Shown piece by piece: positions 16,417 to 29,837 of a DNA stretch of 40,088 bases (positions are counted from its first letter, which is position 1; every line of letters starts with the position of its first letter). The translations under genes were made by a program, and so were the position numbers. The notes beneath the pieces are model-generated. The model made no database searches. It had not been told where the DNA came from and saw nothing but the letters and a program-made list of their open reading frames with translations. The stretch comes from Planctomycetia bacterium (GTDB lineage Bacteria; Planctomycetota; Phycisphaerae; Phycisphaerales; SM1A02), in assembly GCA_005799495.1 (NCBI GenBank), contig SYGP01000008.1, forward strand, positions 1-40,088, in the 5' to 3' direction.

Positions 16417-17523
16417 ATGATTGTCGGCGTTCCAACGGAAGTCAAGACGGATGAGTTTCGTGTCGGCATGCGCCCTGTTGGCGTCGAGCTGCTGGTCCGC
16501 GATGGACACTCGGTGTTCGTGCAGTCGGGCGCCGGCCTCGGCAGCGGATTCACGGACGAGCAGTACAGCGCCGCGGGTGCCACATTGCTCCCGAAGGCTG
16601 CGGAGGTCTGGGAACGATCTCAGATGATCGTGAAGGTCAAGGAGCCGCAGCCCGCCGAGATCCCGATGATCAAGGCGGATCAGATTGTGTTCACCTACTT
16701 CCACTTCGCGGCAGACCGCGAGCTCACGATCGGATGCCTTGAGTCCAAGTGCATCGCATGCGCCTATGAAACGCTCACCGATGACGAGGGCCGCCTGCCG
16801 CTGCTGACGCCGATGAGCGAGGTCGCCGGCAAGCTCTCGATCCAGGAGGGAGCGAAGTACCTCGAACGCCCGTGGGGTGGTTCGGGCGTCCTGCTCGGTG
16901 GCGTTCCAGGCGTCGCGCCTGGCAATGTGCTGGTGATCGGCGGCGGTGTCGTGGGCACATGCGCCGCTCGCATGGCGGCTGGTCTTGGCGCGGATGTCGT
17001 GATCGCCGACATCAACCTCGATCGCCTGCGCGCGCTCGATGAGTTCATGCCGGAGAATGTCCACACGATCTATTCCGATCCGCAGGCGATCCGCGAGCGA
17101 CTTGCCTGGGCCGACCTGATCGTCGGCGCCGTACTGCTGCCGGGTGCCCGCGCACCGAAGCTGATCCGCCGCGACGATCTCCGGCACATTCGCCCGGGCT
17201 CCGTGATCGTCGATGTGGCAATCGATCAGGGTGGCTGCGTGGAGACGGCGAAAGTCACCACGCATCGGAACCCCGTGTACACGGTCGATGGCGTCGTGCA
17301 CTACTGCGTCGGCAACATGCCGGGCGCGGTGGCTCGAACTTCGACGCAGGCGCTCACGAACGCGACGCTGCCGTGGGCGCTGAAGCTTGCGAAGTTCGGC
17401 GCGGATCAACTCGCGCGCATGGATCACCACTTCGCCAACTGCATCAACACCACGCGGGGCACGCTCGTGAACAAGCCCGTTGCCGAGGCGCACGATCTCG
17501 AATTCGCTGCACTCAGCACATGA
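16417..17523 (+). CDS. ald: Alanine dehydrogenase
   Basis: A 368-residue NAD-dependent enzyme interconverting L-alanine with pyruvate and ammonia. The N-terminus IVGVPTEVKTDEFRVGMRPV matches the family (Arg15 region). The catalytic Lys is in MIVKVKEPQ and the His in TYFHFAAD. The Rossmann motif is VIGGGVVGTCAARMAAGLGADV, followed by acidic VIADIN for NAD ribose binding. The C-terminal YCVGNMPGAVARTSTQALTNA is characteristic of Ald rather than NNT alpha. Length is standard. A clear AGGAG fixes the ATG. The stop overlaps the purD start (ATGA), so the two are co-translated; there is no obvious metabolic reason for the pairing. Confidence 0.96.
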   Translation: MIVGVPTEVKTDEFRVGMRPVGVELLVRDGHSVFVQSGAGLGSGFTDEQYSAAGATLLPKAAEVWERSQMIVKVKEPQPAEIPMIKADQIVFTYFHFAADRELTIGCLESKCIACAYETLTDDEGRLPLLTPMSEVAGKLSIQEGAKYLERPWGGSGVLLGGVPGVAPGNVLVIGGGVVGTCAARMAAGLGADVVIADINLDRLRALDEFMPENVHTIYSDPQAIRERLAWADLIVGAVLLPGARAPKLIRRDDLRHIRPGSVIVDVAIDQGGCVETAKVTTHRNPVYTVDGVVHYCVGNMPGAVARTSTQALTNATLPWALKLAKFGADQLARMDHHFANCINTTRGTLVNKPVAEAHDLEFAALST

Positions 17524-18860
17524 CGGACACGCCTTCGCAACCCATCCCGCCTCGCCTGAACGTCCTCCTGATCGGCTCAGGCGGACGCGAACATGCGCTC
17601 GCGTGGCGCCTGTCGCAGTCGCCGCGGCTGGGCAAGCTCTTCGTCGAACCGAGCGCGCATCCAGGCTTGCTTGCCCTCGGGACGCCCTGCCCCGAAGACC
17701 TCGGTCCTCGCAAGATGTTCCAACTCGAGCGCTGGTTCGAGCGGGAGGAGATCGGCTTCGTGATTGTCGGACCTGAGGTGCCCCTTGCCGAGGGAATCGC
17801 GGATCGACTCGCCGCGCCGAACCGACCTGTCTTCGGTCCCGTCCAGGCTGCGGCGCGAATCGAGTCGGACAAGGCGTTCGCCAAGACGCTGATGCGCCAG
17901 ACATCGATCCCTACCGCGGAGGGACGCACCTTCACATCGCTCGACGCGGCACTCGCCTATGTGACCGAGCGCGATGAGCCATGCGTGGTGAAGGCAGCCG
18001 GACTCTGTGCGGGCAAAGGGGTCAGCGTGTGCGAGACGCGCGCACAAGCGATCGCCGCGGTTCGCGCCTGCATGGATGCGAGGCAGTTCGGCGAGGCGGG
18101 GCAAACGGTGGTCATCGAGGAGCGACTGGAGGGGCAGGAAATCTCCGTGCTTGCGCTCGTCGACGGTCGCACCATCACAGTGCTCGACACGGTGCAGGAT
18201 CACAAGCAAGTCGGCGAAGGGGACAAGGGGCCCAACACGGGCGGCATGGGGACGATTTGCCCGACACCTCTGCTGAGCGATGAGGAACTGAAGGCTGTTG
18301 CACGCGATGTGTTCGTTCCAGCCGTCGACGGGCTTCGCCGACAGGGGATTGAATACCGTGGCGTGTTGTTCGCGGGATTGATGCTGACCCCCGCCGGTCC
18401 GAAGGTTCTCGAATTCAACTGCAGGTTCGGCGATCCAGAGACGCAAGTCTTGATGGCGCGGTTCGAAGGCGATCTTCTCGAAACTCTTTGGCTGACTGCG
18501 CAAGGTCGACTCGCGGAGGCTCGGTTCTCCTTCGATCCCCGCCCCGCCTGCTGTGTGGTGGTGTGCAGTCGTGGGTACCCCTCGGCATCGAGCAAGGGAG
18601 ACCCCATCGAGGGGCTGTCCAATGCCCTCCCCCAAGTGGCCGATCACGGCATCGTGTTTCAGGCTGGCACGCAGGCAAACAAGTCGGGGCAAATCATCAC
18701 CGCCGGGGGGCGCGTGGCTGGCGCGACATGCCTTGGGGACGACTTGGCAGATGCCTGCACTCGAGCGACCGCGCTTGCAGAATCCGTCCGTTTTCACGGC
18801 GCGTTCTTCCGCCGCGACATCGGATCTCGGCTGCTTCGGAACGCGAAATCTGGTGGATAA
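17520..18860 (+). CDS. purD: Phosphoribosylamine--glycine ligase
   Basis: A 446-residue GAR synthetase, second step of de novo purine synthesis (ATP-grasp). The N-terminal motif NVLLIGSGGREHALAWRL is diagnostic. FVIVGPEVPLAEGIADRL, the ATP-grasp lysine in VVKAAGLCAGKGV, GPNTGGMGTICPTPLL and LEFNCRFGDPETQ are all present. ATG 17520 overlaps the ald stop and gives an N-terminus about ten residues longer than usual (MTDTPSQPIPPRLN). The C-terminal domain is complete, so the enzyme should be functional. No other pur genes are in the window. About 140 bp without a gene follow, with no convincing terminator or promoter. Confidence 0.96.
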   Translation: MTDTPSQPIPPRLNVLLIGSGGREHALAWRLSQSPRLGKLFVEPSAHPGLLALGTPCPEDLGPRKMFQLERWFEREEIGFVIVGPEVPLAEGIADRLAAPNRPVFGPVQAAARIESDKAFAKTLMRQTSIPTAEGRTFTSLDAALAYVTERDEPCVVKAAGLCAGKGVSVCETRAQAIAAVRACMDARQFGEAGQTVVIEERLEGQEISVLALVDGRTITVLDTVQDHKQVGEGDKGPNTGGMGTICPTPLLSDEELKAVARDVFVPAVDGLRRQGIEYRGVLFAGLMLTPAGPKVLEFNCRFGDPETQVLMARFEGDLLETLWLTAQGRLAEARFSFDPRPACCVVVCSRGYPSASSKGDPIEGLSNALPQVADHGIVFQAGTQANKSGQIITAGGRVAGATCLGDDLADACTRATALAESVRFHGAFFRRDIGSRLLRNAKSGG

Positions 18861-19000
18861 TTGTGGCGGTTGCGGGGCGCGTTCCGAGTGCAACTCGTAT
18901 GTGGATTGGTATGCTTTTCGCCTGATCGAATTTCTCTGGCAGCGGTTGCGGAGACCGTGGCAACGCCAGTGTCGTTTGAGATTGGGTCTTGAGATCATCC

Positions 19001-22000
19001 ATGAGAAAGTTCTCCCGTCTTTTGTTGTGCACCCTCGTGGTTGCGCTGTTCACCGCGATGACTTCGACTGTGTGGGCACAGCAGACACGGTCTGGAAAGG
19101 CAGCCTCCCCCCAAGCTGCGCCCACAGCTGCTTCAAAGAGTGCTGCCAAGGTTGATGCCACAACGGAGCAGGAACTTCGTGAATCGGCCGCCAAGCGACT
19201 TGCCGCACAGCCGACCACACCCACCAAGACCCCGACGAAGGATCCAGGACTGCTGCAGTTGCCGCTCAACCCGCGTACTGGGCAGCCAGTCCACACGGGG
19301 CGCCTCATCGTCATGTTCAAGGAGTCGGCTGGCATTCGAGCCCCGCGCACCGCGGGGCTGGATGTGTCCTCGCTCGGCAAGTCCGACCTTGCCCAGGTTC
19401 AGGCCACCATCGTTCGATATGGAGCCACCATCCGGCAAGCGATCAATGCCGATCCCGGGCAACTGGCTGAACTCCGCGCGCGAGGGCTCGCGCGTTCAGG
19501 AAAGCTTTCGCCCGACCTGGCGTCGATGATGATGATCGAAGGCGTGCCGCCGAGCCAACTCCTCGCCGCGGGCAGGGATTTTCTGGCGATGACGGAAGTC
19601 GAGTGGGTGGAAGTCGAAGGCAAGGTATCGCTCTGCGCACCACAGGGGGGCGGTTGCGGCACTCCTGCACCCACCTGCGGCTTCGGCAGTACGGGCAACG
19701 CTTGGACTGCCTGCCCACAGTGCGGAGTCTGTCAAGACGGTATTGCTTTGCCGTGCGTGTATCCGCACCCGGGCACTGTCGATGACTCAACGCCACCGAA
19801 CCTGGTGGGCAATTGCAGCGATGCACTGACCTGCGAAATCGTCAACGGCGTTCGTCCGACTTGCGCGGTGTGCTGGGATGAAGTGTGTGCAACCTTGGCA
19901 AATCTGCTGGGACCGTCGGGCTTCGGCGGCGATGGCATTTATGACACTTGTTTGCAGACCATCCAAGCTGGCACGACTCCCCCGCCTGGCTACCCGCCAC
20001 CATTTCCCTTCGACTGTGACTGGGATCCGATCGAAGAGTCGATTGTCATCACCAACTCTCCGTTTGAGATTCATGGGCTTGCTGGGAGTTCCAATCCAGA
20101 CTGCTGCCGAGAGGTGTGCTTCCGCGATGTGTCATGCTGCACTGTGAACTGGGACGAGAACTGCGCATCCATCGCGATTGGACTTTACGACTCGTGCTAC
20201 TCGACACCTGGATTGCTGATCAACGGCGGTTCTCCGCAGACTCCGAGCGCCCAAGATCCATCGCCGCTGTTCGACCCCCAAATGTTGGAGGTCCCGCCGC
20301 CCGTTGCAACGGCCGACAGCTTTGCGCTCAGTCTCTACACCACGGCGCAGAAGTTCCCCGACCCCTATGTCGGGCCCAATCCACCGCCGCCCACTCCTCC
20401 GGGCGCTTTCGCACCGTTCATCAATGCCACAGGATTCCGTGGCGGAGGACTCGACCTCGCTGGCTTCCGAAGTTTGCTGAACCAGTTTCCTGGCGACAAT
20501 GGACCGCAACTGCCCACCATCAAGATTGCGGTTGTTGAACCTTCCGCGCTTGTGAGTCACGAGGATCTGATCAGTCCGATTACGGGGCTGTCCAAGGTGG
20601 TCGTCGAACCAGGCCAGACACCCCTCGTGATCAACGATCAATCCGACCCGCCGCCCACCTTCGAGGGCAGTTTCTACACAGCGCCAATGCATGGAACTGC
20701 GACGCTCGGCATCCTTGCGGCGGAGGACAACACCATCGGCGTCACTGGAATTGTGCCAGAAGTCACGACACTGTTCTTCCCGACCGAGTCCTTTGAGGAG
20801 CAGGGGCGTCTGCTGACGGCAATGACCAATGCTGCCATCCGGCTCTCCGACATTTCGACCGCGGATCCAAACCCGGGCAATGTCATGGTCCTGCCAATCG
20901 ACATCGCTGGACAGCCCTTGAATGCATTCGCTGCAACCGCAGCGATCATCACCTCCGCCATGAACAGCGGCGTCACCGTGGTGTTGGCTGCTGGGAACGC
21001 TTCGCAAGCGATCGCAGATCCGATCGCCGGCTCGGAAGCGGCTGTGATTGCAGGCGGAGTGAATCCGGGCTTTCAGTTCACAACGGCTCCCAATGATTTT
21101 CGCGTGTACCCTGGGTTGAACTACTGCCGATCTGGCATCAGCAACTTCAGCGGAACCGCAACCGTCGACATTTCTGGATGGGGGCGCGGTGTTGCAACCC
21201 TCGGATACGGCGACCTGTTCTGTGGACAGAACGCGGGCATTTCGCCAATTCCAGCAGTCCAGGAGTACGAGCAGAATCGCCTTCGCTCTTACACGGCAAC
21301 ATGGGGTGGCACGAGCGCAGGGGCAGCTCAGATTGCTGGAGTTGTTGCACTGATGCAAGCCCTGTCCAAGCAGGTGTATGACGGACTGCCGCTGACGAGC
21401 GCCAATGTCAAAGCATCGTTCCAAGCGCCAGACAGCGCTTCCCCTCAGTGCGGCTTGGCTCCTGGAGGGGCGATCGCGTTCCCCACCCAGAACGGCGCGC
21501 CTGGCGTCCAGATCGGAGACTTGATCGCTGACGGCAGCGAAGATCTGGCGCTTGTCGGCGGATTCCCTGCGATGCGTCGGCTTGGAACCAATGTCATCAC
21601 AGGCAACTTCTTCACGAACAATCAGTGCGAGTTCCAGATTGTCACTGGAACGCTCATCAGCGGTTCACAGTTGAGCATTCGTGAGATTGACAACAAGTTC
21701 GTCAAGACAATCACGGCTCGGCCGAGCGGCGCCGCCTCCTCGGGTCTTGGGCCCCCGCTGTTCTATCCGACCTCCAAGCGGGTACTTGACATGCAGGTCG
21801 TGCGGACGACCCCGCTGAACGATGTCAACGATCTCACGCAGGTCTCCGTGCGCGTGGTCGGCCAAACAGTCTCAGCACCCAGCGGGCTCGTGATGGTCTT
21901 CATCTACAACGCCGTGACCAATCGCTGGGTGGTGATGCCTCCTTATGTCGGACAGATGACATCGGGTGGCGCGCCCATTGGGCAGTTCATCCTTCCTGCG

Positions 22001-22183
22001 TGCATCGAGCCCTCGTATGTGGGCATTCCAAACGGAGCGGGCGTTGATATTGCCACGCGTGTTGTTGTGCTGCCTATCAGCGGATTTGGACAGACCCAGA
22101 TTTGGATCGACCAGATCGAGATTCTGTTCAACGATCCCCTTGGCGATGTTGGGCAGCCTTGTGGCGGCGGAAATGGCGGCTGA
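19001..22183 (+). CDS. Secreted subtilisin-like (S8) protein with Glu at the catalytic Asp position
   Basis: 1060 residues. Signal peptide about 1-30 (MRKFSRLLLCTLVVALF, cleavage near VWA-QQ). A propeptide-like region (about 95-210) follows, then two Cys-rich repeats of the C..VC..CC..WD..C..A kind (about 270-300 and 365-400), a Pro-rich linker, and a subtilase-like domain from about 505. Its His is H564 (PMHGTATLGILAA), the oxyanion Asn is N666 (VVLAAGN) and the nucleophile S772 (GGTSAGAAQIAGVVALM). The strand that normally ends in Asp reads IAVVEPSALVSHEDL, giving E513. About 270 further residues form a beta-rich C-terminus ending in a Gly-rich tail. ATG 19001 is preferred over TTG 18989. 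Activity is uncertain; it could be weakly active or a binding protein. Confidence 0.85.
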   Translation: MRKFSRLLLCTLVVALFTAMTSTVWAQQTRSGKAASPQAAPTAASKSAAKVDATTEQELRESAAKRLAAQPTTPTKTPTKDPGLLQLPLNPRTGQPVHTGRLIVMFKESAGIRAPRTAGLDVSSLGKSDLAQVQATIVRYGATIRQAINADPGQLAELRARGLARSGKLSPDLASMMMIEGVPPSQLLAAGRDFLAMTEVEWVEVEGKVSLCAPQGGGCGTPAPTCGFGSTGNAWTACPQCGVCQDGIALPCVYPHPGTVDDSTPPNLVGNCSDALTCEIVNGVRPTCAVCWDEVCATLANLLGPSGFGGDGIYDTCLQTIQAGTTPPPGYPPPFPFDCDWDPIEESIVITNSPFEIHGLAGSSNPDCCREVCFRDVSCCTVNWDENCASIAIGLYDSCYSTPGLLINGGSPQTPSAQDPSPLFDPQMLEVPPPVATADSFALSLYTTAQKFPDPYVGPNPPPPTPPGAFAPFINATGFRGGGLDLAGFRSLLNQFPGDNGPQLPTIKIAVVEPSALVSHEDLISPITGLSKVVVEPGQTPLVINDQSDPPPTFEGSFYTAPMHGTATLGILAAEDNTIGVTGIVPEVTTLFFPTESFEEQGRLLTAMTNAAIRLSDISTADPNPGNVMVLPIDIAGQPLNAFAATAAIITSAMNSGVTVVLAAGNASQAIADPIAGSEAAVIAGGVNPGFQFTTAPNDFRVYPGLNYCRSGISNFSGTATVDISGWGRGVATLGYGDLFCGQNAGISPIPAVQEYEQNRLRSYTATWGGTSAGAAQIAGVVALMQALSKQVYDGLPLTSANVKASFQAPDSASPQCGLAPGGAIAFPTQNGAPGVQIGDLIADGSEDLALVGGFPAMRRLGTNVITGNFFTNNQCEFQIVTGTLISGSQLSIREIDNKFVKTITARPSGAASSGLGPPLFYPTSKRVLDMQVVRTTPLNDVNDLTQVSVRVVGQTVSAPSGLVMVFIYNAVTNRWVVMPPYVGQMTSGGAPIGQFILPACIEPSYVGIPNGAGVDIATRVVVLPISGFGQTQIWIDQIEILFNDPLGDVGQPCGGGNGG

Positions 22184-22490
22184 TTCATCCGATGGAACGG
22201 CGAAATCCGACAGTCTCACTTGACTTTCCTGGCACTCAAGCCATCTTGACTCCGTTGATCTGCGGGGCGTCGCAGGTTCAGCTCCCCCAAGCCGCAACGA
22301 ATCACCGTGCTTTGGCGCGGCGTTTCAGGGCGGCGAGGGCGGTGTCTGGATCTCCGCTTGGCATGGACCCTTCACACCTTCGATTGGAACGGCATCACCA
22401 TTTGCGTGGTGGGTTCGGACGGTCGGTGACTTGGTCAGTTTCGGCGACAAAGCCCTCTGCGCATCGCGAACAACCCTGGAATGGACTTCA
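22184..22490 (+). other. 307-bp intergenic region, no gene recognised
   Basis: This separates two secreted protease-like genes. Short open frames here have no recognisable similarity or signal peptide. No tRNA, strong hairpin plus T-run, or convincing -35/-10 pair is seen; TTGACT near 22217 lacks a matching -10. It probably holds the promoter and leader of the downstream metalloprotease gene. Confidence 0.5.
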
Positions 22491-25400
22491 ATGAGGACTC
22501 AGAACACCATGCGACTCACCCGCTCCATGTGCTCCGCTCTCGTGCTCGCCTCCTTTGCAGTCACGGCGCTCTCGGTCGCGAGCGACAAGAGTTCGTTGCC
22601 TCTGCGCGCACCTTCTCTCGATGCCACGGGGAGATCTCCTGCAGCGGTTTCGAAGGAGGATCGTGTGAATGGCCTCAACTTGAACGAGATCAAGGTGAAG
22701 GCACTTCAAGGGGCGATGCCTCAGCCTGGACCCTCGAGACCAGACCTTGCATCGATGGGCGTGTCCGGGGCTGGCATGCCGAACCTGACTGCCGAACAGG
22801 TGCGCCGCTGGAAGATTGGTGATGAGATTTCACTTGCCACGCCGGAGGGGCAGACCATTGACTTGCGCGTGACGCGGCGCGCGTGGACGGCTGCAGATGA
22901 GGCGCAGGTGTACCTCGGTCGCACCGATACTGCCAACTCGATCTACGGCATTGTCTGCCAGATTGGGCCGCGACTCGCGGGCTATGTACTCGCCCGATCT
23001 GGTGCGGCGTATGCCATTACTGCGGCTGATGGTGGCACCTACCGCCTGACTCGCCGTCCCGACTATGGACAACTCGAGTGTGGTGTCGGTCGTGAACTCA
23101 AACGGCACCCCGATCAGGGGATGTACGGGGGCTCCAAGGGCCCATTCATGGGTGGCGAACTCGCCGGTTTGGCGGGTGAAGGGGCGAATGAAGGCGGCGT
23201 TGCTGGCGCCGTGACCCCCTGCCCCCCTGAAGTGGCCCCCATTGGCATTCCGGCAGGGTTGGTGAAGGACAGCGGGATCATCATTGATGTGTTGTTTGTT
23301 TTCTCCGTGGATGCTGACGAGTTCATCCGAGAAGGCGGATCGACTCCGTATGACCAAGCCGTTGCAACGGTCGCCCAGGCAAATCTTGCGCTGTTCACGT
23401 CAACTGAGCAAGGCGGCGCTGAATTCAACGGAGCCGATCTCAACAATAACCTCAATAACAACTGTGGTTACGGGTCATATCCCGAGCCTGGCACCGTGAC
23501 CAATCCCCCTGCGGTCGGTCCGCCCGCTCCACAACCCCCCGCTTCATGCGTTGGTACCGAACAACTGGCTTACCACGAAGCTCGTCCAGGCGTGACGCCT
23601 GCGGAGGAAGAGGTCTGTTTGCCTCGCCTGCGACTGGTGGGCGCGCTGGTGTGCGATGGGTTCTTTGGTCAGGAGGAACCGTTCGTCAGTACGGGATATG
23701 GCATTGACCTTGACCGTCTGCAAACGAATGGTGACGGTTATCTCGACTATGTCCTGGACTGGCGAGACGCGCTCGGTGCAGACGAAGTCGCCCTCGTTGG
23801 CACGAACTATGGATCGGATAGTGCATTCGTTGGATTGGCAAGCGTCATGGTGGATGCGAACAACGTGGCACAAGGGCTCGCTGGGCTCAGCGTCCCTGCA
23901 AATCCGCACCCAATCGTTGATTCCACGAATCCCCTGTCCGCGCCCGCGGGTGGGATCGTGGGGCCATCCGATGTTTCCACGCTGCAGGCGTTCTCCGAGA
24001 GGCCATTTTGCCTGCTCGACGCGACCATCCTGGGGGATCTTGTTTACGCGCATGAACTGGGCCACAACTTTGGCTGCCAACACAACCACGAAGCACCCTC
24101 TGCCGAGCCTGGTGATGCTCTGTTCCCGGATTCCTTTGGGTTTGGCGACGATGATTGGCGAACTGTGATGGCCTACGCGGCCGGGGCGAATGTGCGACTG
24201 CCAGGATTCAGCAATCCGACCAAGACTTGGGCGGACTACGGCGGCGATCCCGACGATAATCAGGAAGCGGGAGTGGAGTTCGATTTCGAGTGCACCCAAC
24301 TCGATGGAGATGGCACAGACGCCGAGTACATCGAAGAGTCGGGCGTCACACTCCCTGGAGAAGATCCCTGCACAAACACGACCGATGACGCGCCCCATGA
24401 CCCTGCCGCAATGGTTGTCGCGTCTGACGCGCGAATCGAGGACGCTGCAGAGGACCGCGCGAACAATGCGAGGTCGATCTCGCAGGTGAAGTTCGACTTT
24501 GCGAAGTTCCGCTGCAGCATTTTTCCCGTCGTCGATTGCAATGACAATGAGATCGATGACTATGTGGAAGCGGTCGATGGGCAGATTGGGGGCGGCACCT
24601 CGAGTGGGGCCGACTGCAACGGCGACGGGATTCCGGATGCATGCCAAGTTGCTGTGGAAGATCCTGGCATCCCCAGTCCGCTCGATTGCAACCAGAACGA
24701 GGTGCCAGACTCCTGCGATATCGCGAATGGCGACAGTCAGGACTTGAACAACAACGGCGTGCCCGACGAGTGCGAAGACTCCCTCCTGGCATTCTTTGAA
24801 GGCTTCGAAACTCAGGTGTACGGCGCCCAGGATGGCCAGCTCGAGATCGCGCGGGTCAGTGCGACGGCCCTCGCTGAACTGCGAGTCGATGACCCGAAGT
24901 TTCCTGAGTTCTTCGCCACCATCGAGACGCAAGATCAGAACGAAGACACGGTCACCGGAGGCTTCATCTACACCGACAACATTCCATCGATCTTCCAGTA
25001 CGGGCTCGGGGAAAACGGCTCATTCGGTCAGTGGGGAGGCATCCTTGGCCAAGGCTTCGCGACTGCATTTGGTTCGCGCGGCTATGGGCAGCGCTTGGTC
25101 TTCAACGGAACCACTGGCGAGTTCCCTTCAGGCGACAGCGCGACGAACGCGAGCGGCGTCACGATCATCCGCACCTATCGGCCTGTGAAGGAGGCGCGCT
25201 TCTTCATGAACGCGTTCGATTTCAAGACCTACTTTGACCTTGAGAACCTGTACCCAGGAACTTTCCCCGGTCTGGCAGACCATCCATACCTCGAAGCAAA
25301 TGCAATTGTCGTGGAGGGGCTGTTGAACACTCCCGCAGGGCTCGAGCAGAAGTTTGTGCAGGTGTATGACATGCGAGCGATCCAGACACCGTTGTATTCG

Positions 25401-25790
25401 ACTGGCTTCCCCAGCACGACAATCGAGGGTGGACCCGTACGAGTCGCTCAGCCCTTCGGATCGGAAATCGATCCAGACTTCGAGTTTGATGAGATCCGTA
25501 TCAGTGGCGCATTTGTGGTCATTGACAATGTGTCATTTGACCTTGGGCAAGAGTTTGCTTCATGCCCTGCAGACATCGCTGGTGGCATCCCTCAAGCAGG
25601 TCTTCCAACACCTGATGGACGGGTGGCAGCGGATGACCTTGTATTCGTTCTTGGTGTGTTCGGCAACGATCCAAACGACAATCCCCTGGCTGAGATCGCA
25701 GATCTTGACAGCGATGGCGATGTGGATTCTGCCGACCTGCTTGAGATTCTCGCTGCCTGGGGCAGTTGCCCTGGTGGATCTGGAGGTTGA
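22491..25790 (+). CDS. Secreted metzincin-type metalloprotease with dockerin-like C-terminus
   Basis: 1099 residues. Signal peptide about 1-30 (ATG 22491; ATG 22509 also possible). A propeptide-like region precedes a zinc protease domain with HELGHNFGCQH (zinc ligands H521, H525, H531; base E522) and a downstream Met-turn TVMAY (M560). This is the metzincin plan of the reprolysin/M12B and M43-like families. Three DCN-x-N/D-x-x-(P)D repeats (about 682-762) follow, of the kind abundant in Phycisphaerales secreted proteins and perhaps Ca-binding. Next is a domain of about 260 residues that I do not recognise. The end is dockerin-like (from C1025): CPADI, DGRVAADDLVFVLGVFG, DLDSDGDVDSADLLEILAAWG, CPGG. 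Active-site residues are intact, so it should be a functional secreted protease, possibly anchored through the tail. Confidence 0.88.
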   Translation: MRTQNTMRLTRSMCSALVLASFAVTALSVASDKSSLPLRAPSLDATGRSPAAVSKEDRVNGLNLNEIKVKALQGAMPQPGPSRPDLASMGVSGAGMPNLTAEQVRRWKIGDEISLATPEGQTIDLRVTRRAWTAADEAQVYLGRTDTANSIYGIVCQIGPRLAGYVLARSGAAYAITAADGGTYRLTRRPDYGQLECGVGRELKRHPDQGMYGGSKGPFMGGELAGLAGEGANEGGVAGAVTPCPPEVAPIGIPAGLVKDSGIIIDVLFVFSVDADEFIREGGSTPYDQAVATVAQANLALFTSTEQGGAEFNGADLNNNLNNNCGYGSYPEPGTVTNPPAVGPPAPQPPASCVGTEQLAYHEARPGVTPAEEEVCLPRLRLVGALVCDGFFGQEEPFVSTGYGIDLDRLQTNGDGYLDYVLDWRDALGADEVALVGTNYGSDSAFVGLASVMVDANNVAQGLAGLSVPANPHPIVDSTNPLSAPAGGIVGPSDVSTLQAFSERPFCLLDATILGDLVYAHELGHNFGCQHNHEAPSAEPGDALFPDSFGFGDDDWRTVMAYAAGANVRLPGFSNPTKTWADYGGDPDDNQEAGVEFDFECTQLDGDGTDAEYIEESGVTLPGEDPCTNTTDDAPHDPAAMVVASDARIEDAAEDRANNARSISQVKFDFAKFRCSIFPVVDCNDNEIDDYVEAVDGQIGGGTSSGADCNGDGIPDACQVAVEDPGIPSPLDCNQNEVPDSCDIANGDSQDLNNNGVPDECEDSLLAFFEGFETQVYGAQDGQLEIARVSATALAELRVDDPKFPEFFATIETQDQNEDTVTGGFIYTDNIPSIFQYGLGENGSFGQWGGILGQGFATAFGSRGYGQRLVFNGTTGEFPSGDSATNASGVTIIRTYRPVKEARFFMNAFDFKTYFDLENLYPGTFPGLADHPYLEANAIVVEGLLNTPAGLEQKFVQVYDMRAIQTPLYSTGFPSTTIEGGPVRVAQPFGSEIDPDFEFDEIRISGAFVVIDNVSFDLGQEFASCPADIAGGIPQAGLPTPDGRVAADDLVFVLGVFGNDPNDNPLAEIADLDSDGDVDSADLLEILAAWGSCPGGSGG

Positions 25791-25852
25791 TTCGTTCTCG
25801 TGACTTCCCTGCGCATCCCACGCAATCGCTGATCTGAATTGAAAGACTACAT

Positions 25853-27691
25853 ATGCTGATCTCCGCAACACTTGCCACAGAACTGCTCCTGCTCACAGCG
25901 GCTTCGGACCAACTCACGGCTGCTCCCCGCCAAGACGCCGTCCTCGTCAGTTACGACCGGGTTGCCCGCGGATCCCAAACAACACTGACGGTCTCAACGC
26001 CGATCGCCGGTGAGGGCGCCCCTGTCAGCTTGGGTGAACTGCGAAACATGGTGGCGGTGACTGAGCAGGCCGTTCGCTCTCCGCGCTTCGAGTTGATGGT
26101 GGACAACACCATCGGTGGCATCTCGTGGGAAGAGCACCAGAAGGCGGCCGCAGGTTCAGCAGAGGGAGGCATTGCGGGCGGACCAGTCGAGCCATTCAAT
26201 CTTCGGCTGCTTCTCACAAGTGCATCCATCGTTCCTCCCACGCAAGTCGAAGGACTCGCCTCGGCGCTTGCTGCAGTTGAGCAGTACATGGAGCAGCACA
26301 TTCAATCGTTCGACATCACGGTGACCTTGCGTGTTGCCTATGTGCCCATCACCGCCGGACGGCTCGGATTCACGACAGCTCGGTATTCCATTGAAAAGTA
26401 CTCCGATGTCGCCGATGCAATCGATCGAGCTAGCCTGAACGAACTCGAAAACACACCGGTGCCCGTTCGCGCCTCCGTTCCCATTCGGTACAGCGGCGTA
26501 TCGACTGCGGCAACGCAGGAGAACCGAGTGTTTGTGACGCGGCCACTCAAGGTGGCTCTCGGGCTGCCTGAGGCGGGCGGCATCAGTGCGCCAGCCGATG
26601 ATGGCACCGTCTCGCTCAACTCCGCGATTCAGTGGGACTTTGATCCGCAGGACGGGCTGCGCTTCGGCACGGGCTATCTGTACTCGTTCCAAGACCACCT
26701 GATTCGAGAGATTGTTCAGGCCATGGGCTTTGTTGCGGGCGCTGACTTTCTCGTCCGCGACTGCACAGTCATGGACTTGTTCCGCTTTCAGGCAGACGCC
26801 ATCGCTCCCACCTACTTGATCGCATCCAACACAAATGTCTTTGGAGGTGCGCCGCCTGTGACGTGTGCCCAGTTTTCTACGCTCCACGAGCAAGGCTTGG
26901 TCGGTGGCGAATCAGTCCTCGGGGCGCTCGACTACAACCCTGGCCTCAACAAGACTCTCATCGCCAATTGGATTCAACTCAATCCCGCCAACACGGCAGA
27001 ACAGCTTCTCGGGGCGGCAACCGCAGCGGTGGGAGATACTCCGAACTCACTCGAGTTTCTTCAGCATCAGATCGCGGGAAACCCTGGTTCCAACACCAAC
27101 GTCTTTGACGACGCCGAGATTCTTCCCGCCATTCCTGCCGCACAGCGGACAGTCGGGTACCCGGATGGTGCGGTGCAGACCATCGCGACGGTTGGGGCTG
27201 GTGCCGGAGCTCGATGCGCCATTGTTGATTTCCGTGCAAGGGTCCCGGCAGTGGCTGGACCCCCCGCCGTTGCTCAGTTGAACCGCGACTTCCGAGGAGC
27301 GATGCCGCGAACCGTTGCACGAAACACGGTGGCCAACACTTCAATCCTGAATTTCATGGTCGACACATCAGGTTCTTCGGACGACTTTGAGATGGAGATG
27401 TACGACGGGTCGCCTGTCCGCGGCGCATTCATCAAGCAGAATGAGCTGGGCGACCTTGGTACTCGGTGTCTGCTGGGCAAGGAGATTGGGCGTGGAGTCA
27501 CCTATTTCAGCCGAGATCCTTGCTCATACATCTCCTCCCCGCTCGATCTCACCCCGCTCGGGAAACTTCCAGACTTTCTCTCGGCGCGCGAGTGGCTCGC
27601 GCTCGATATGTTTGGGTGGAGTATCGACCTGAGCACGCTTGATGAGACCGACGAGGGCGATACTTCCGTAGATCTCAATTGCGAACCGTAA
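25853..27691 (+). CDS. Secreted metalloprotease-like protein with lost zinc site
   Basis: 612 residues. The N-terminus MLISATLATELLLLTAASDQL resembles a weak signal peptide lacking a positive n-region. The middle and C-terminal architecture (HLIREIVQAMGFVAGADF, then CTVMDLFRF; later YPDGAVQTIATVGAGAG and a C-terminal LDMFGWSID) recalls, from memory, a family of secreted metalloproteases with a conserved HEIGHALGF-type helix followed by a DLFRFR motif. Here the helix reads R285-E-I-V-Q289-AMGF: both zinc-binding histidines are gone while the flanking residues are kept. The changes need several substitutions, so they are not a base-calling error. The protein is intact over 600 codons and therefore probably still selected, for example as a binding protein or inhibitor. 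It follows the metzincin gene by 62 bp. Confidence 0.75.
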   Translation: MLISATLATELLLLTAASDQLTAAPRQDAVLVSYDRVARGSQTTLTVSTPIAGEGAPVSLGELRNMVAVTEQAVRSPRFELMVDNTIGGISWEEHQKAAAGSAEGGIAGGPVEPFNLRLLLTSASIVPPTQVEGLASALAAVEQYMEQHIQSFDITVTLRVAYVPITAGRLGFTTARYSIEKYSDVADAIDRASLNELENTPVPVRASVPIRYSGVSTAATQENRVFVTRPLKVALGLPEAGGISAPADDGTVSLNSAIQWDFDPQDGLRFGTGYLYSFQDHLIREIVQAMGFVAGADFLVRDCTVMDLFRFQADAIAPTYLIASNTNVFGGAPPVTCAQFSTLHEQGLVGGESVLGALDYNPGLNKTLIANWIQLNPANTAEQLLGAATAAVGDTPNSLEFLQHQIAGNPGSNTNVFDDAEILPAIPAAQRTVGYPDGAVQTIATVGAGAGARCAIVDFRARVPAVAGPPAVAQLNRDFRGAMPRTVARNTVANTSILNFMVDTSGSSDDFEMEMYDGSPVRGAFIKQNELGDLGTRCLLGKEIGRGVTYFSRDPCSYISSPLDLTPLGKLPDFLSAREWLALDMFGWSIDLSTLDETDEGDTSVDLNCEP

Positions 27692-27704
27692 GGCGCGCAC
27701 TGTC

Positions 27705-28433
27705 TTGAGCGCCTCAAGGGTTGGCGACCGACGATCGGTGACCGCTCCGTGCGGTTGGTTGTCTCCGCTCCTGCTATCGCGCTCGGTACCGCACTGGTGT
27801 GGTGTCTGCGTCGGATTGTCCGATGCCTCACTTGCAAGCGAACTCGGCGGTCCCACCGCTCAGCTTTGCCGTGCGAAACAAGTTCATGGATCGCGGTGGA
27901 TCCACGCCAACCGTTGCCTTGGCGCTCGCTCCGAGGCCGATGCAGTCGTGAGTGCGGACACCACGCTTGTTGCGGCAGTGTCCACCGCAGACTGCTGCCC
28001 TGTGTTGGTGGCGTGCCTTGCATCAGGATGCGTTGCAGCCATTCACGCGGGGTGGCGAGGACTCGCCTCGGATGTGATCGGTGCGACAGTGGGCGGCATG
28101 ACGCTGGAGTACGGAGCCCAGCCAAGCCACATGGTGGCAGCCATCGGACCGTGTGCGTCCGGACAGCTCTATGAGGTCGGCACGGATGTCATCCGCGCAT
28201 TTGAATCGCGCGGGCTGTCGAGCGCTCTCAGCGTTCCTGAGGGAACGCGATCGGGACACGCGTTTGCCGACTGCTCTCAGGCTGCTCGCATCCTCCTGCA
28301 GCGAGCGGGAGTGCCAGCTGAATCGGTCGAGAACGAGGCACCCTGCACCATCAGCGACCCTCGGTTTCCCAGCTACCGACGGGAGCCATCGAATCCTGCG
28401 CGCATGACGAGCGCCATTGCATGCCGACGGTGA
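27705..28433 (+). CDS. YfiH/PgeF family protein (Cu-oxidase_4, multicopper polyphenol oxidase-like)
   Basis: A 242-residue member of the family earlier called laccase-like or DUF152. Members have been described as purine nucleoside phosphorylase/adenosine deaminase-like and, in E. coli, as clearing wrongly built UDP-MurNAc peptides. The zinc ligands are H61 (AKQVHG), C97 (TADCCPVLV) and H114 (AAIHAGWRGLA), with AAIGPCASGQLYEVG and the final FPSYRRE intact. The N-terminus is shorter and odder than usual. The TTG start at 27705 is a guess; GTG 27738 also works. It lies 13 bp after the metalloprotease-like gene on the same strand. Confidence 0.86.
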   Translation: MSASRVGDRRSVTAPCGWLSPLLLSRSVPHWCGVCVGLSDASLASELGGPTAQLCRAKQVHGSRWIHANRCLGARSEADAVVSADTTLVAAVSTADCCPVLVACLASGCVAAIHAGWRGLASDVIGATVGGMTLEYGAQPSHMVAAIGPCASGQLYEVGTDVIRAFESRGLSSALSVPEGTRSGHAFADCSQAARILLQRAGVPAESVENEAPCTISDPRFPSYRREPSNPARMTSAIACRR

Positions 28434-28457
28434 CTGGGATCGCTGTACTGCTACACT
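28430..28457 (+). promoter_or_regulatory. Possible sigma-70-type promoter for tRNA-Ser
   Basis: GTGACT (28430-28435) and TACACT (28452-28457) are separated by 16 bp. The -10 ends 11 bp before the first base of the tRNA gene. The -35 matches the consensus at four of six positions and overlaps the end of the yfiH-type gene. Placement is good but sequence support is only moderate. Confidence 0.4.
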
Positions 28458-28468
28458 TCCTCCGCGCT

Positions 28469-28559
28469 GGACAGGTGGCCGAGTGGCTGAAGGCGTCGGT
28501 TTGCTAAACCGGTATAGGGACTTCAATCCCTATCGCGGGTTCGAATCCCGCCCTGTCCG
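28469..28559 (+). tRNA. tRNA-Ser (anticodon GCT)
   Basis: A class II tRNA of 91 nt. The acceptor stem is GGACAGG (28469-28475) with CCTGTCC (28552-28558) and discriminator G28559. The anticodon loop TTGCTAA has GCT at 28503-28505, reading AGC and AGU. The long variable arm has a 7-bp stem, ATAGGGA (28514-28520) with TCCCTAT (28527-28533), as expected for Ser. The T arm is GCGGG-TTCGAAT-CCCGC. The 3' CCA is not encoded and must be added by tRNA nucleotidyltransferase. Confidence 0.97.
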
Positions 28560-28631
28560 TTTTCCCTTCTCTCGATGCACATCGGGGAATCCCCTCCTGC
28601 GTGGCTCGGCTTCGCTAGACTGCGAGTCTCC

Positions 28632-29837
28632 ATGAAAATCCACGAATATCAGGCGCGGAAGTTGCTCTCCGATGCAGGGATTCCCGTTCCAAAGGGCCGC
28701 ATGGTGCAGTCGACCGAAGAGGCGTTGGACGCAGCGCGTGAACTCTTCACGAGCGGTTCCACACAAGCCGTCGTGAAGGCACAGGTGCATGCGGGTGGGC
28801 GAGGCAAGGCGGGGTTCGTGAAGGTTGTTCGGTCGATCGACGATGTGGTTGCCGCAGCACGATTCATGCTCGGCAACCGGATGCAGAGTCCGCAGACTCC
28901 ACCCGAGGGGCTGGAGGTGAAGCGCTTGCTCGTGGCCGATGCAGTCGACATCGCGCACGAGTACTACGCCGCCGTTCTTGTGGACCGTGAACGGCGGACC
29001 AATACGCTGATTGCGAGTGCCGAGGGTGGCGTCGAAATCGAACGGGTTGCTGAGGAGCGCCCCGACGCGATTGTCCGCGTTCCGCTTGATCCGTTTGCCG
29101 GGCTGCTCCCCTTCCAGGCACGGCGTGTGGCGCTCGCGCTCGGCTTCCGTGGAAAGGCTGCATCGCAGGCAGCGACGGTGCTGACTCGCCTGAGCAGCCT
29201 TCAGCAGAAGCTCGATGCAAGTTTGGTGGAAGTGAATCCCCTGGTCCTGACACCGCCAACCACCGCCCATCCCGATGGGCAGGTCTTGGCAATCGATGCC
29301 AAGTTCGCTTTCGATGACAACGCGCTGTTTCGGCATGCGGAGATCGAGGCTTTGCACGATCCCGCCGAGGAGAACGCAGCCGAGATTCGTGCGCAGTCCT
29401 TCGGTCTTTCCTATGTGGCACTCGATGGCAACATTGGCTGTCTGGTCAATGGTGCGGGGCTTGCCATGAGCACCATGGACATCATCAAGTTGCATGGTGG
29501 GGAGCCCGCAAACTTCCTCGATGTGGGTGGCAGCGCGAGCGAGGAGGCTGTCACGGAAGCGTTCCGGATCATCCTCAGTGACGGCCGCGTCGAAGGCGTG
29601 CTCGTGAACATTTTTGGTGGCATCATGCAGTGTGATCGCATCGCCCGCGCGATCGTCGGTGCTGCGTCGACGATTGGCTTCGATGTGCCGCTCGTGGTGC
29701 GTCTCGAGGGCACCAATGTGCAGGAGGCGCGTGCCATCCTGGAGGAGGCGCGTTCACGCATTCCAACGATGCAATCGGCTTCGGACCTGGCGGACGCAGC
29801 GGCAAAGGTCGTTGCTGCCGTGGGCGCACCAGCCTGA
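28632..29837 (+). CDS. sucC: Succinate--CoA ligase (ADP-forming) subunit beta
   Basis: 401 residues, TCA cycle, converting succinyl-CoA to succinate with ATP formation. The N-terminus MKIHEYQARKLLSDAGIPVP is diagnostic. The ATP-grasp part includes VVKAQVHAGGRGKAGFVKVV and LVEVNPLVL, and the C-terminal CoA-ligase part includes GNIGCLVNGAGLAMSTMDII, FLDVGGSASEEAVTEAF and VNIFGGIMQCDRIA. Length is slightly over the usual 390. ATG 28632 is fixed by the family start. The alpha subunit gene sucD normally follows immediately, but here the next gene is a HAD phosphatase and no sucD exists in the window. SucC needs SucD for activity, so sucD must be elsewhere. Confidence 0.96.
   Translation: MKIHEYQARKLLSDAGIPVPKGRMVQSTEEALDAARELFTSGSTQAVVKAQVHAGGRGKAGFVKVVRSIDDVVAAARFMLGNRMQSPQTPPEGLEVKRLLVADAVDIAHEYYAAVLVDRERRTNTLIASAEGGVEIERVAEERPDAIVRVPLDPFAGLLPFQARRVALALGFRGKAASQAATVLTRLSSLQQKLDASLVEVNPLVLTPPTTAHPDGQVLAIDAKFAFDDNALFRHAEIEALHDPAEENAAEIRAQSFGLSYVALDGNIGCLVNGAGLAMSTMDIIKLHGGEPANFLDVGGSASEEAVTEAFRIILSDGRVEGVLVNIFGGIMQCDRIARAIVGAASTIGFDVPLVVRLEGTNVQEARAILEEARSRIPTMQSASDLADAAAKVVAAVGAPA

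Follow-up and report, generated by a model that had tools for sequence, protein, structure and literature searches.

We analyzed a 40,088-nucleotide (nt) stretch of DNA, here called the window, from a Planctomycetia bacterium (Phycisphaerales; SM1A02; assembly GCA_005799495.1, contig SYGP01000008.1, positions 1-40,088), in which purD and a pgeF-type gene flank three + strand genes for protease-type proteins, P1, P2 and P3, arranged head to tail (Table 1). A sequence-only reading of this DNA had singled out the arrangement, describing a subtilisin-like protein with Asp changed to Glu, an intact metzincin and a metalloprotease-like protein devoid of zinc ligands. All of these descriptions hold: the ATG at 19001 opens P1, the P3 stop codon closes at 27691, P1 has Glu-513 at the Asp position together with His-564 and Ser-772, P2 carries HELGHNFGCQH and a VMAY Met-turn, and P3 has REIVQ and no third His, a state conserved in its orthologues. 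Judged by eye from their N-termini, all three proteins are probably exported. The genes are separated by 307 nt (P1-P2) and 62 nt (P2-P3), and 13 nt lie between P3 and the earliest possible (TTG) start of the pgeF-type gene. A tRNA-Ser gene lies beyond the pgeF-type gene on the downstream side. Within 18800-28700 neither promoter-like sites (1 vs 1.9 expected from shuffling) nor terminator-like sites (2 vs 8.0) are in excess.

Table 1. Features of the protease locus (window positions, except where a locus handle precedes the position)
Feature	Position	Strand	Evidence
P1, subtilase (S8) with Glu-His-Ser, 1060 amino acids (aa)	19001..22183	+	Pfam PF00082 4.1e-10; orthologues
P1, codon of E513, catalytic-Asp place of subtilases	20537..20539	+	Glu in 14/14 genus rows reaching the position
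P1, codon of H564 (HGT motif)	20690..20692	+	conserved in every row reaching the position
P1, codon of S772 (GTS motif)	21314..21316	+	conserved in every row reaching the position
P2, metzincin (M12/reprolysin-like), 1099 aa	22491..25790	+	Pfam PF13688 3.5e-8; orthologues
P2, zinc site HELGHNFGCQH	24051..24083	+	HExxHxxGxxH in 11/12 rows reaching the site; G016 has HKLGH
P2, Met-turn methionine (VMAY)	24168..24170	+	[VI]M[AS]Y in 12/12 rows reaching the site
P2, GC-type dockerin-like module	25563..25760	+	NF041540 5.9e-6, 26.6 bits, below cut-off 29
P2, hexapeptide EGGVAG, ahead of the catalytic domain	23190..23207	+	
P3, putative zinc-less NF038122-type pseudoprotease, 612 aa	25853..27691	+	NF038122 1.3e-16 (under cut-off); profile match E 2.8e-40
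P3, REIVQ at the HExxH place	26705..26719	+	Arg-Glu in 12/12 and Gln in 11/12 P3 rows; HExxH in 15 active homologues
P3, F526 at the presumed third zinc His place	27428..27430	+	His in 0/12 P3 rows; Ser-His in 15/15 active homologues
P3, hexapeptide EGGIAG, ahead of the pseudo-catalytic domain	26162..26179	+	
P3x paralogues	L117:11987-13777, L112:11984-13762, L115:11911-13641, L110:2042-3814		
purD, conserved left neighbour (start codon provisional)	17517..18860	+	GARS_N, GARS_A, GARS_C
pgeF-type gene, right neighbour (start codon provisional)	27705..28433	+	Cu-oxidase_4 1.7e-46

Sequence comparison indicates that P3 is a non-catalytic homologue of the NF038122 metalloproteases, and not a member of that family by cut-off. 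Its match scores 61.5 bits (63.3 in a second search) against a cut-off of 80, and alignment of P3 with profiles of the active family by hhalign gives a probability of 100% over 333 columns. Pfam returns no match for P3, and neither does a sequence search of the PDB at E 1. As the active set for comparison we used the 15 NF038122 matches above cut-off, which come from 11 of 37 genomes; for each of these the open reading frame (ORF) with HExxH..G was taken, and no locus was dropped for want of one. The zinc site is kept in all 15, and we take the downstream Ser-His of these homologues, by analogy with related families, to hold the third zinc ligand. In the 12 P3 rows, 10 of them from the genus and 2 from genome G019 of another genus, Arg-Glu always replaces His-Glu, Gln replaces the second His in 11, and the third His is absent from all; the truncated G016 row is excluded and the second row of G013 goes with the paralogue P3x. 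P3 would thus descend from an active NF038122-type metalloprotease that lost three zinc ligands, a change that should make the cutting mechanism of the family impossible. P3 proteins are also longer, at about 600 aa, than most active members (383-463 aa).

The old active site of P3 appears to have been rebuilt, not just decayed, because residues around it are invariant and the gene is under constraint. Positions without any variation across the 16 rows of alignment A3 include D281, R285, G292, D308 and R311. The 16 zinc-less rows (12 P3 and 4 P3x) form one side of a branch with 100/100 support in a tree with the active homologues. Pairwise ratios of nonsynonymous to synonymous change (dN/dS) for P3, which like all such values given here are rough because dS is mostly near saturation, are 0.086 (window/G009) and 0.063 (G005/G018), comparable to those of purD (0.060 and 0.058). 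The former active site would therefore have been remodelled about an Arg-Glu pair that never varies among the P3 rows, 11 of which also have the Gln. Given that the metal-binding centre is lost yet the protein is strongly preserved, P3 probably works as a non-cutting partner and not as an enzyme, and a remodelled site kept under purifying selection most likely binds something. The paralogue P3x, a second zinc-less protein encoded directly after P3 in G005, G007, G013 and G018, keeps the Arg, has lost the Glu and shows a dN/dS of 0.084. In P3 of two genomes (L113:10001-12436 and L116:2038-4506, ORFs of 815 and 829 codons), an insertion of about 520-600 nt separates two parts that resemble P3 of the window.

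P2 is predicted to be an active secreted zinc metzincin. Its intact zinc site and Met-turn are accompanied by a Reprolysin_5 match of 34.4 bits, above the cut-off of 27, and its pairwise dN/dS values are 0.066 and 0.101. The C-terminal module is dockerin-like and falls short of GC-type dockerin membership by score. The PDB holds no sequence match to P2 at E 0.1.

P1 belongs to the S8 family by score (PF00082, 39.9 bits against a cut-off of 21.8), and has Glu-His-Ser in place of the canonical Asp-His-Ser triad. The best solved relative is mirolase (8ehe, 2.7e-5), and since the printed alignment with it omits the acid strand, the assignment of the P1 acid relies on homologues. A prodomain is suggested by inspection of the sequence by eye, and no prodomain family matches P1. 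The sequence-only reading had counted two catalytically altered proteins and offered, as an example, one enzyme with two binding, regulatory or inhibitory partners, which would make P2 the active enzyme and P1 and P3 its dead partners. This description suits P3. For P1 we consider it improbable, even though Glu is fixed at the Asp position in all genus rows that reach it, the Thr-Gly type motif that follows is lost, and Glu can substitute poorly in the triad. Among 12 of the 13 distant P1 homologues (loci L047-L059, with the partial match L058 omitted), Glu occupies the acid position in 9 rows and Asp in the other 3, and none of the 12 lacks His, the oxyanion Asn or Ser. The G019 contig begins beyond the acid position, which is therefore not readable there. 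A quick tree, in which branches are long, places the three Asp rows between the genus, which has Glu, and outlying homologues that also have Glu, so that Glu and Asp seem to interchange, a pattern that seems to fit a catalytic acid in use. P1 is in addition under purifying selection (dN/dS 0.073, 0.072 and, for window/G006, 0.113). Because Glu is usual in the wider family and the other catalytic residues are retained, we regard P1 as probably active and as the second enzyme of the set, and a dead P1 is not our leading reading. A Cys-rich segment of P1 containing Trp-Asp (residues ~350-405, window ~20048-20215) matches many other long proteins of the genus and family.

The order purD-P1-P2-P3 is contiguous in 8 of the 19 genomes sampled from the genus (G000-G018), namely those of the window, G009, G015, G008, G005, G001, G018 and G013; stops flagged inside the G005 P3 and G015 P1 matches do not shorten the full-length ORFs used. 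Fragments in G011 and G007 are consistent with the same order on contigs that end inside it, G017 has P1 and the start of P2, with no P3 seen, and so fits the order up to its contig end, and P1 is visible up to the contig end in G006 and G003. A divergent P1 stands alone in a contiguous locus in G002 and G012, G016 retains only remnants, and no orthologue is found in G004, G010 and G014, where the purD contig stops short of the locus. G019 has the order P1-P2-P3a-P3b. Conserved gene order in relatives, which the sequence-only reading had proposed as a check, is thus seen both in the genus and in that of G019, the same active-site residues are found again in orthologues from across the genus, and within its lineage the set is stable. 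Scanning GTDB r220 contigs with a P3 alignment returns 10 loci, four of them titled as Lake Baikal metagenome-assembled genomes. Across 61 genomes searched, P1 is present in every genome that has P2 or P3.

P2 and P3 share not only presence but also absence (G002, G012) and damage (G016), which covers all three genomes in which such a state can be read; the flanking genes are retained in these genomes. In G016 (L097:965-2775), P2 carries HKLGH and stops short, and all that remains of P3 is a last 114-codon ORF directly behind it, as if a deletion had run from P2 into P3, although the pattern could possibly reflect misassembly of a draft genome. In a tree built from as many as 11 flanking proteins, G011, G012, G002 and G016 form one group (100/100), in which G002 stands beside G016 (94/99) and the branches leading to G011 and G012 are very short; the G016 row is 43% filled. 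The flanks of G011 and G012 are 93.8% identical in nucleotides over 5.5 kb on the left and 95.0% over 7.3 kb on the right. Between these flanks G011 (L098, L099) carries P1-P2-P3, split across two contigs, and G012 (L104) a lone divergent P1; the two interiors give no blastn match (word 11, E 1e-10). Similarity drops within the 3' end of purD, a segment that is more variable in all compared pairs, so that the boundary is inexact. Joint grouping of the G011, G012 and G002 P1 proteins, a group named after the trees had been seen, is rejected by the approximately unbiased (AU) test (p-AU 0.006), which makes a block exchange at one chromosomal site in G012 relative to G011 likelier than fast change in place. 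A more general exchange of the cassette was considered when the P1 tree seemed to put the window lineage inside G008/G011/G015, and is not backed by AU tests: the flank-type grouping is not rejected when tested on P1 (p 0.22), and the P1-type grouping is not rejected when tested on the flanks (p 0.27). The dS of P1 exceeds that of purD in window/G006 (1.17 vs 0.74), a hint that is not seen in window/G009 (1.39 vs 1.36).

The shared history of P2 and P3 bears on the possibility that P3 restrains P2 (or P1) as an inhibitor, in the manner of the potempins that accompany the KLIKK proteases. Adjacent genes that are present, absent or damaged together would suit such a pair, and potempin genes directly precede the protease inhibited according to an excerpt of one account (PMC7296668). 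P3, however, follows P2, and is a 612-aa former protease and not a small lipoprotein like the potempins; moreover, P3x follows P3 in four genomes without extra copies of P2 being seen alongside. We therefore think inhibition by P3 rather unlikely.

P2 and P3 also share a hexapeptide, [DE]GG[IVL]AG, which precedes the catalytic domain of the one and the pseudo-catalytic domain of the other. The strict motif occurs in 23 of 2090 mechanically called ORFs of the cassette regions (10 P2, 10 P3, 2 P3x and 1 P1) and in 3 of 802 ORFs from other regions, with neither P2 nor P3 among the three; looser forms are found in P2 of G018 and G007 and in P3a of G019, and G019 P2 and P3b lack it. The genome of the window has 9 sites of the DNA pattern against 1 for a reversed control, and 6 of the 9, those of P2 and P3 included, fall within long ORFs whose products appear, by eye, to be secreted. 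Reading 60 of the 75 sites in seven other genomes of the genus places 36 in ORFs of at least 519 codons, many of which are truncated where the locus ends; in 18 of the 36 an HExxH lies downstream of the hexapeptide, and three of the sites read are C-terminal in cytoplasmic-looking proteins. The hexapeptide may be a maturation site. It also stands ahead of domains in other long, secreted-looking and often zincin-like proteins of the genus (L181, L184, L185, L186). The position of the motif in P2 and P3 led us to consider P1 as a processing enzyme that cuts their proforms at this sequence, an idea that we reject as highly improbable since P1 and the motif do not track one another across the genomes read. 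Two G024 proteins have the motif before HExxH domains although no P1 is found in that genome, and whereas G023, which has P1, provides two such cases, none occurs among 8 sites in G035 and 4 in G020, both with P1. No HExxH case is seen among the 30 sites read, of 42, in G049, which belongs to another family, and HExxH flags in G031 (L311) and G022 (L308) were discarded as chance occurrences in ORFs that are unrelated by eye.

These observations lead us to suggest, tentatively and at somewhat less than even confidence, that the three genes are a cassette, specific to this lineage, that serves proteolysis outside the cell and comprises two active proteases and a non-catalytic partner, most likely of P2. 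P1 would work extracellularly as a secreted Glu-His-Ser subtilase, and P2 as a secreted zinc metzincin of a different protease class with a dockerin-like C-terminal module. P3 would most likely bind a substrate, a propeptide or P2 itself through the site formed by its retained Glu and gained Arg, and the leading candidate role is that of a partner of P2 in substrate capture, positioning or modulation. We favor P2 as the protein most likely to be contacted because its gene and that of P3 are the closest of the set and share presence, absence and damage. A bolder version seems doubtful to us, in which P2 and P3 would form a two-chain extracellular metalloprotease drawn from two zincin families, with substrates recognized by a dead zincin through an Arg-Glu-Gln pocket, and would travel with the Glu-triad subtilase as an exchangeable cassette swapped among relatives at one chromosomal site.

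Several points weigh against the cassette. The sequence-only reading had proposed a working set, and while contiguous order speaks for one, as does the finding that P2 and P3 are missing or damaged together, the neighboring housekeeping genes are also syntenic, so that conserved order is weak evidence of joint function. Joint loss supports but does not prove such a function, because a single deletion or exchange can take out adjacent genes. The P1, P2 and P3 trees concur on the main split and show no significant discordance with the flank tree except for G012 and G002, which argues that the block is mostly inherited vertically with its flanks. The hexapeptide does not tie P2 to P3 specifically because many other proteins carry it, and the gap between P1 and P2 leaves space for separate transcription. 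AlphaFold models of P3 (16 sequences, mean predicted local distance difference test score, pLDDT, 46.7) and of P1 (9 sequences, mean pLDDT 33.0) were not used as evidence, and neither was the Foldseek search with the P3 model, which gave no match at E <= 0.001. Some of these points would suit an independent P3 that binds a surface or matrix, with the trio adjacent through shared descent of a syntenic region and not as a working set. This alternative also accommodates the P1 homologues of other genera, for which no ORF of at least 120 codons matches the P2 or P3 profile in any of 13 regions, some of them cut by contig ends; a purD-like ORF, recognized by eye, precedes P1 in three of these regions. 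We nevertheless consider it unlikely, given that P2 and P3 are lost or damaged jointly between retained flanks and that neither occurs without P1 in the genomes searched.

A bacterial pseudoprotease that is conserved and has a genetic link to an intact metzincin would offer a simple setting for asking what dead proteases do. Its replacement between relatives with near-identical flanks provides a natural contrast of strains that have it with strains that lack it, and the apparent interchange of Glu and Asp at the catalytic acid in the P1 family is directly testable. Among the papers listed by searches of one open library, no title or abstract opening describes this trio of genes, a subtilase with a Glu triad or an NF038122 protein without zinc ligands. 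The parts are of known kinds; their combination, the pseudo-site with Arg-Glu-Gln and the replacement as a block did not turn up in these searches.

Compared with its nearest families, P3 is homologous to NF038122 (metallo_LGF, NCBIfam) over most of the family length but differs in having all three presumed zinc ligands replaced, in its greater length and in a score under the cut-off. P1 shares the His, oxyanion Asn and Ser motifs of S8 subtilases, including mirolase, and differs in having Glu for Asp, whereas P2 has the HExxHxxGxxH and Met-turn of reprolysin-like M12 metzincins and differs in its dockerin-like module. The KLIKK proteases of Tannerella are, in the accessible portions of two reports (PMC4404884, PMC7296668), clustered secretory proteases with non-protease companion genes; there the companions are small inhibitors, whereas here the companion would be a dead protease. 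M16B heterodimers have the HXXEH motif on one chain and not on the other, as an extract of a further report describes (PMC12731061), and P2 and P3 may work alike, although they come from two different families and neither gives a match to M16. In the sections available of one review (PMC11266112), the best-described zincin pseudoproteases are animal proteins, among them inactive ADAMs whose metzincin-type domains have lost HExxH (e.g., QTLGQ, QSLAQ), and some of these, such as ADAM22, use the dead domain's surface for partner binding. Those M12 pseudopeptidases are animal membrane proteins of another family, whereas P3 has Arg-Glu-x-x-Gln at the corresponding site.

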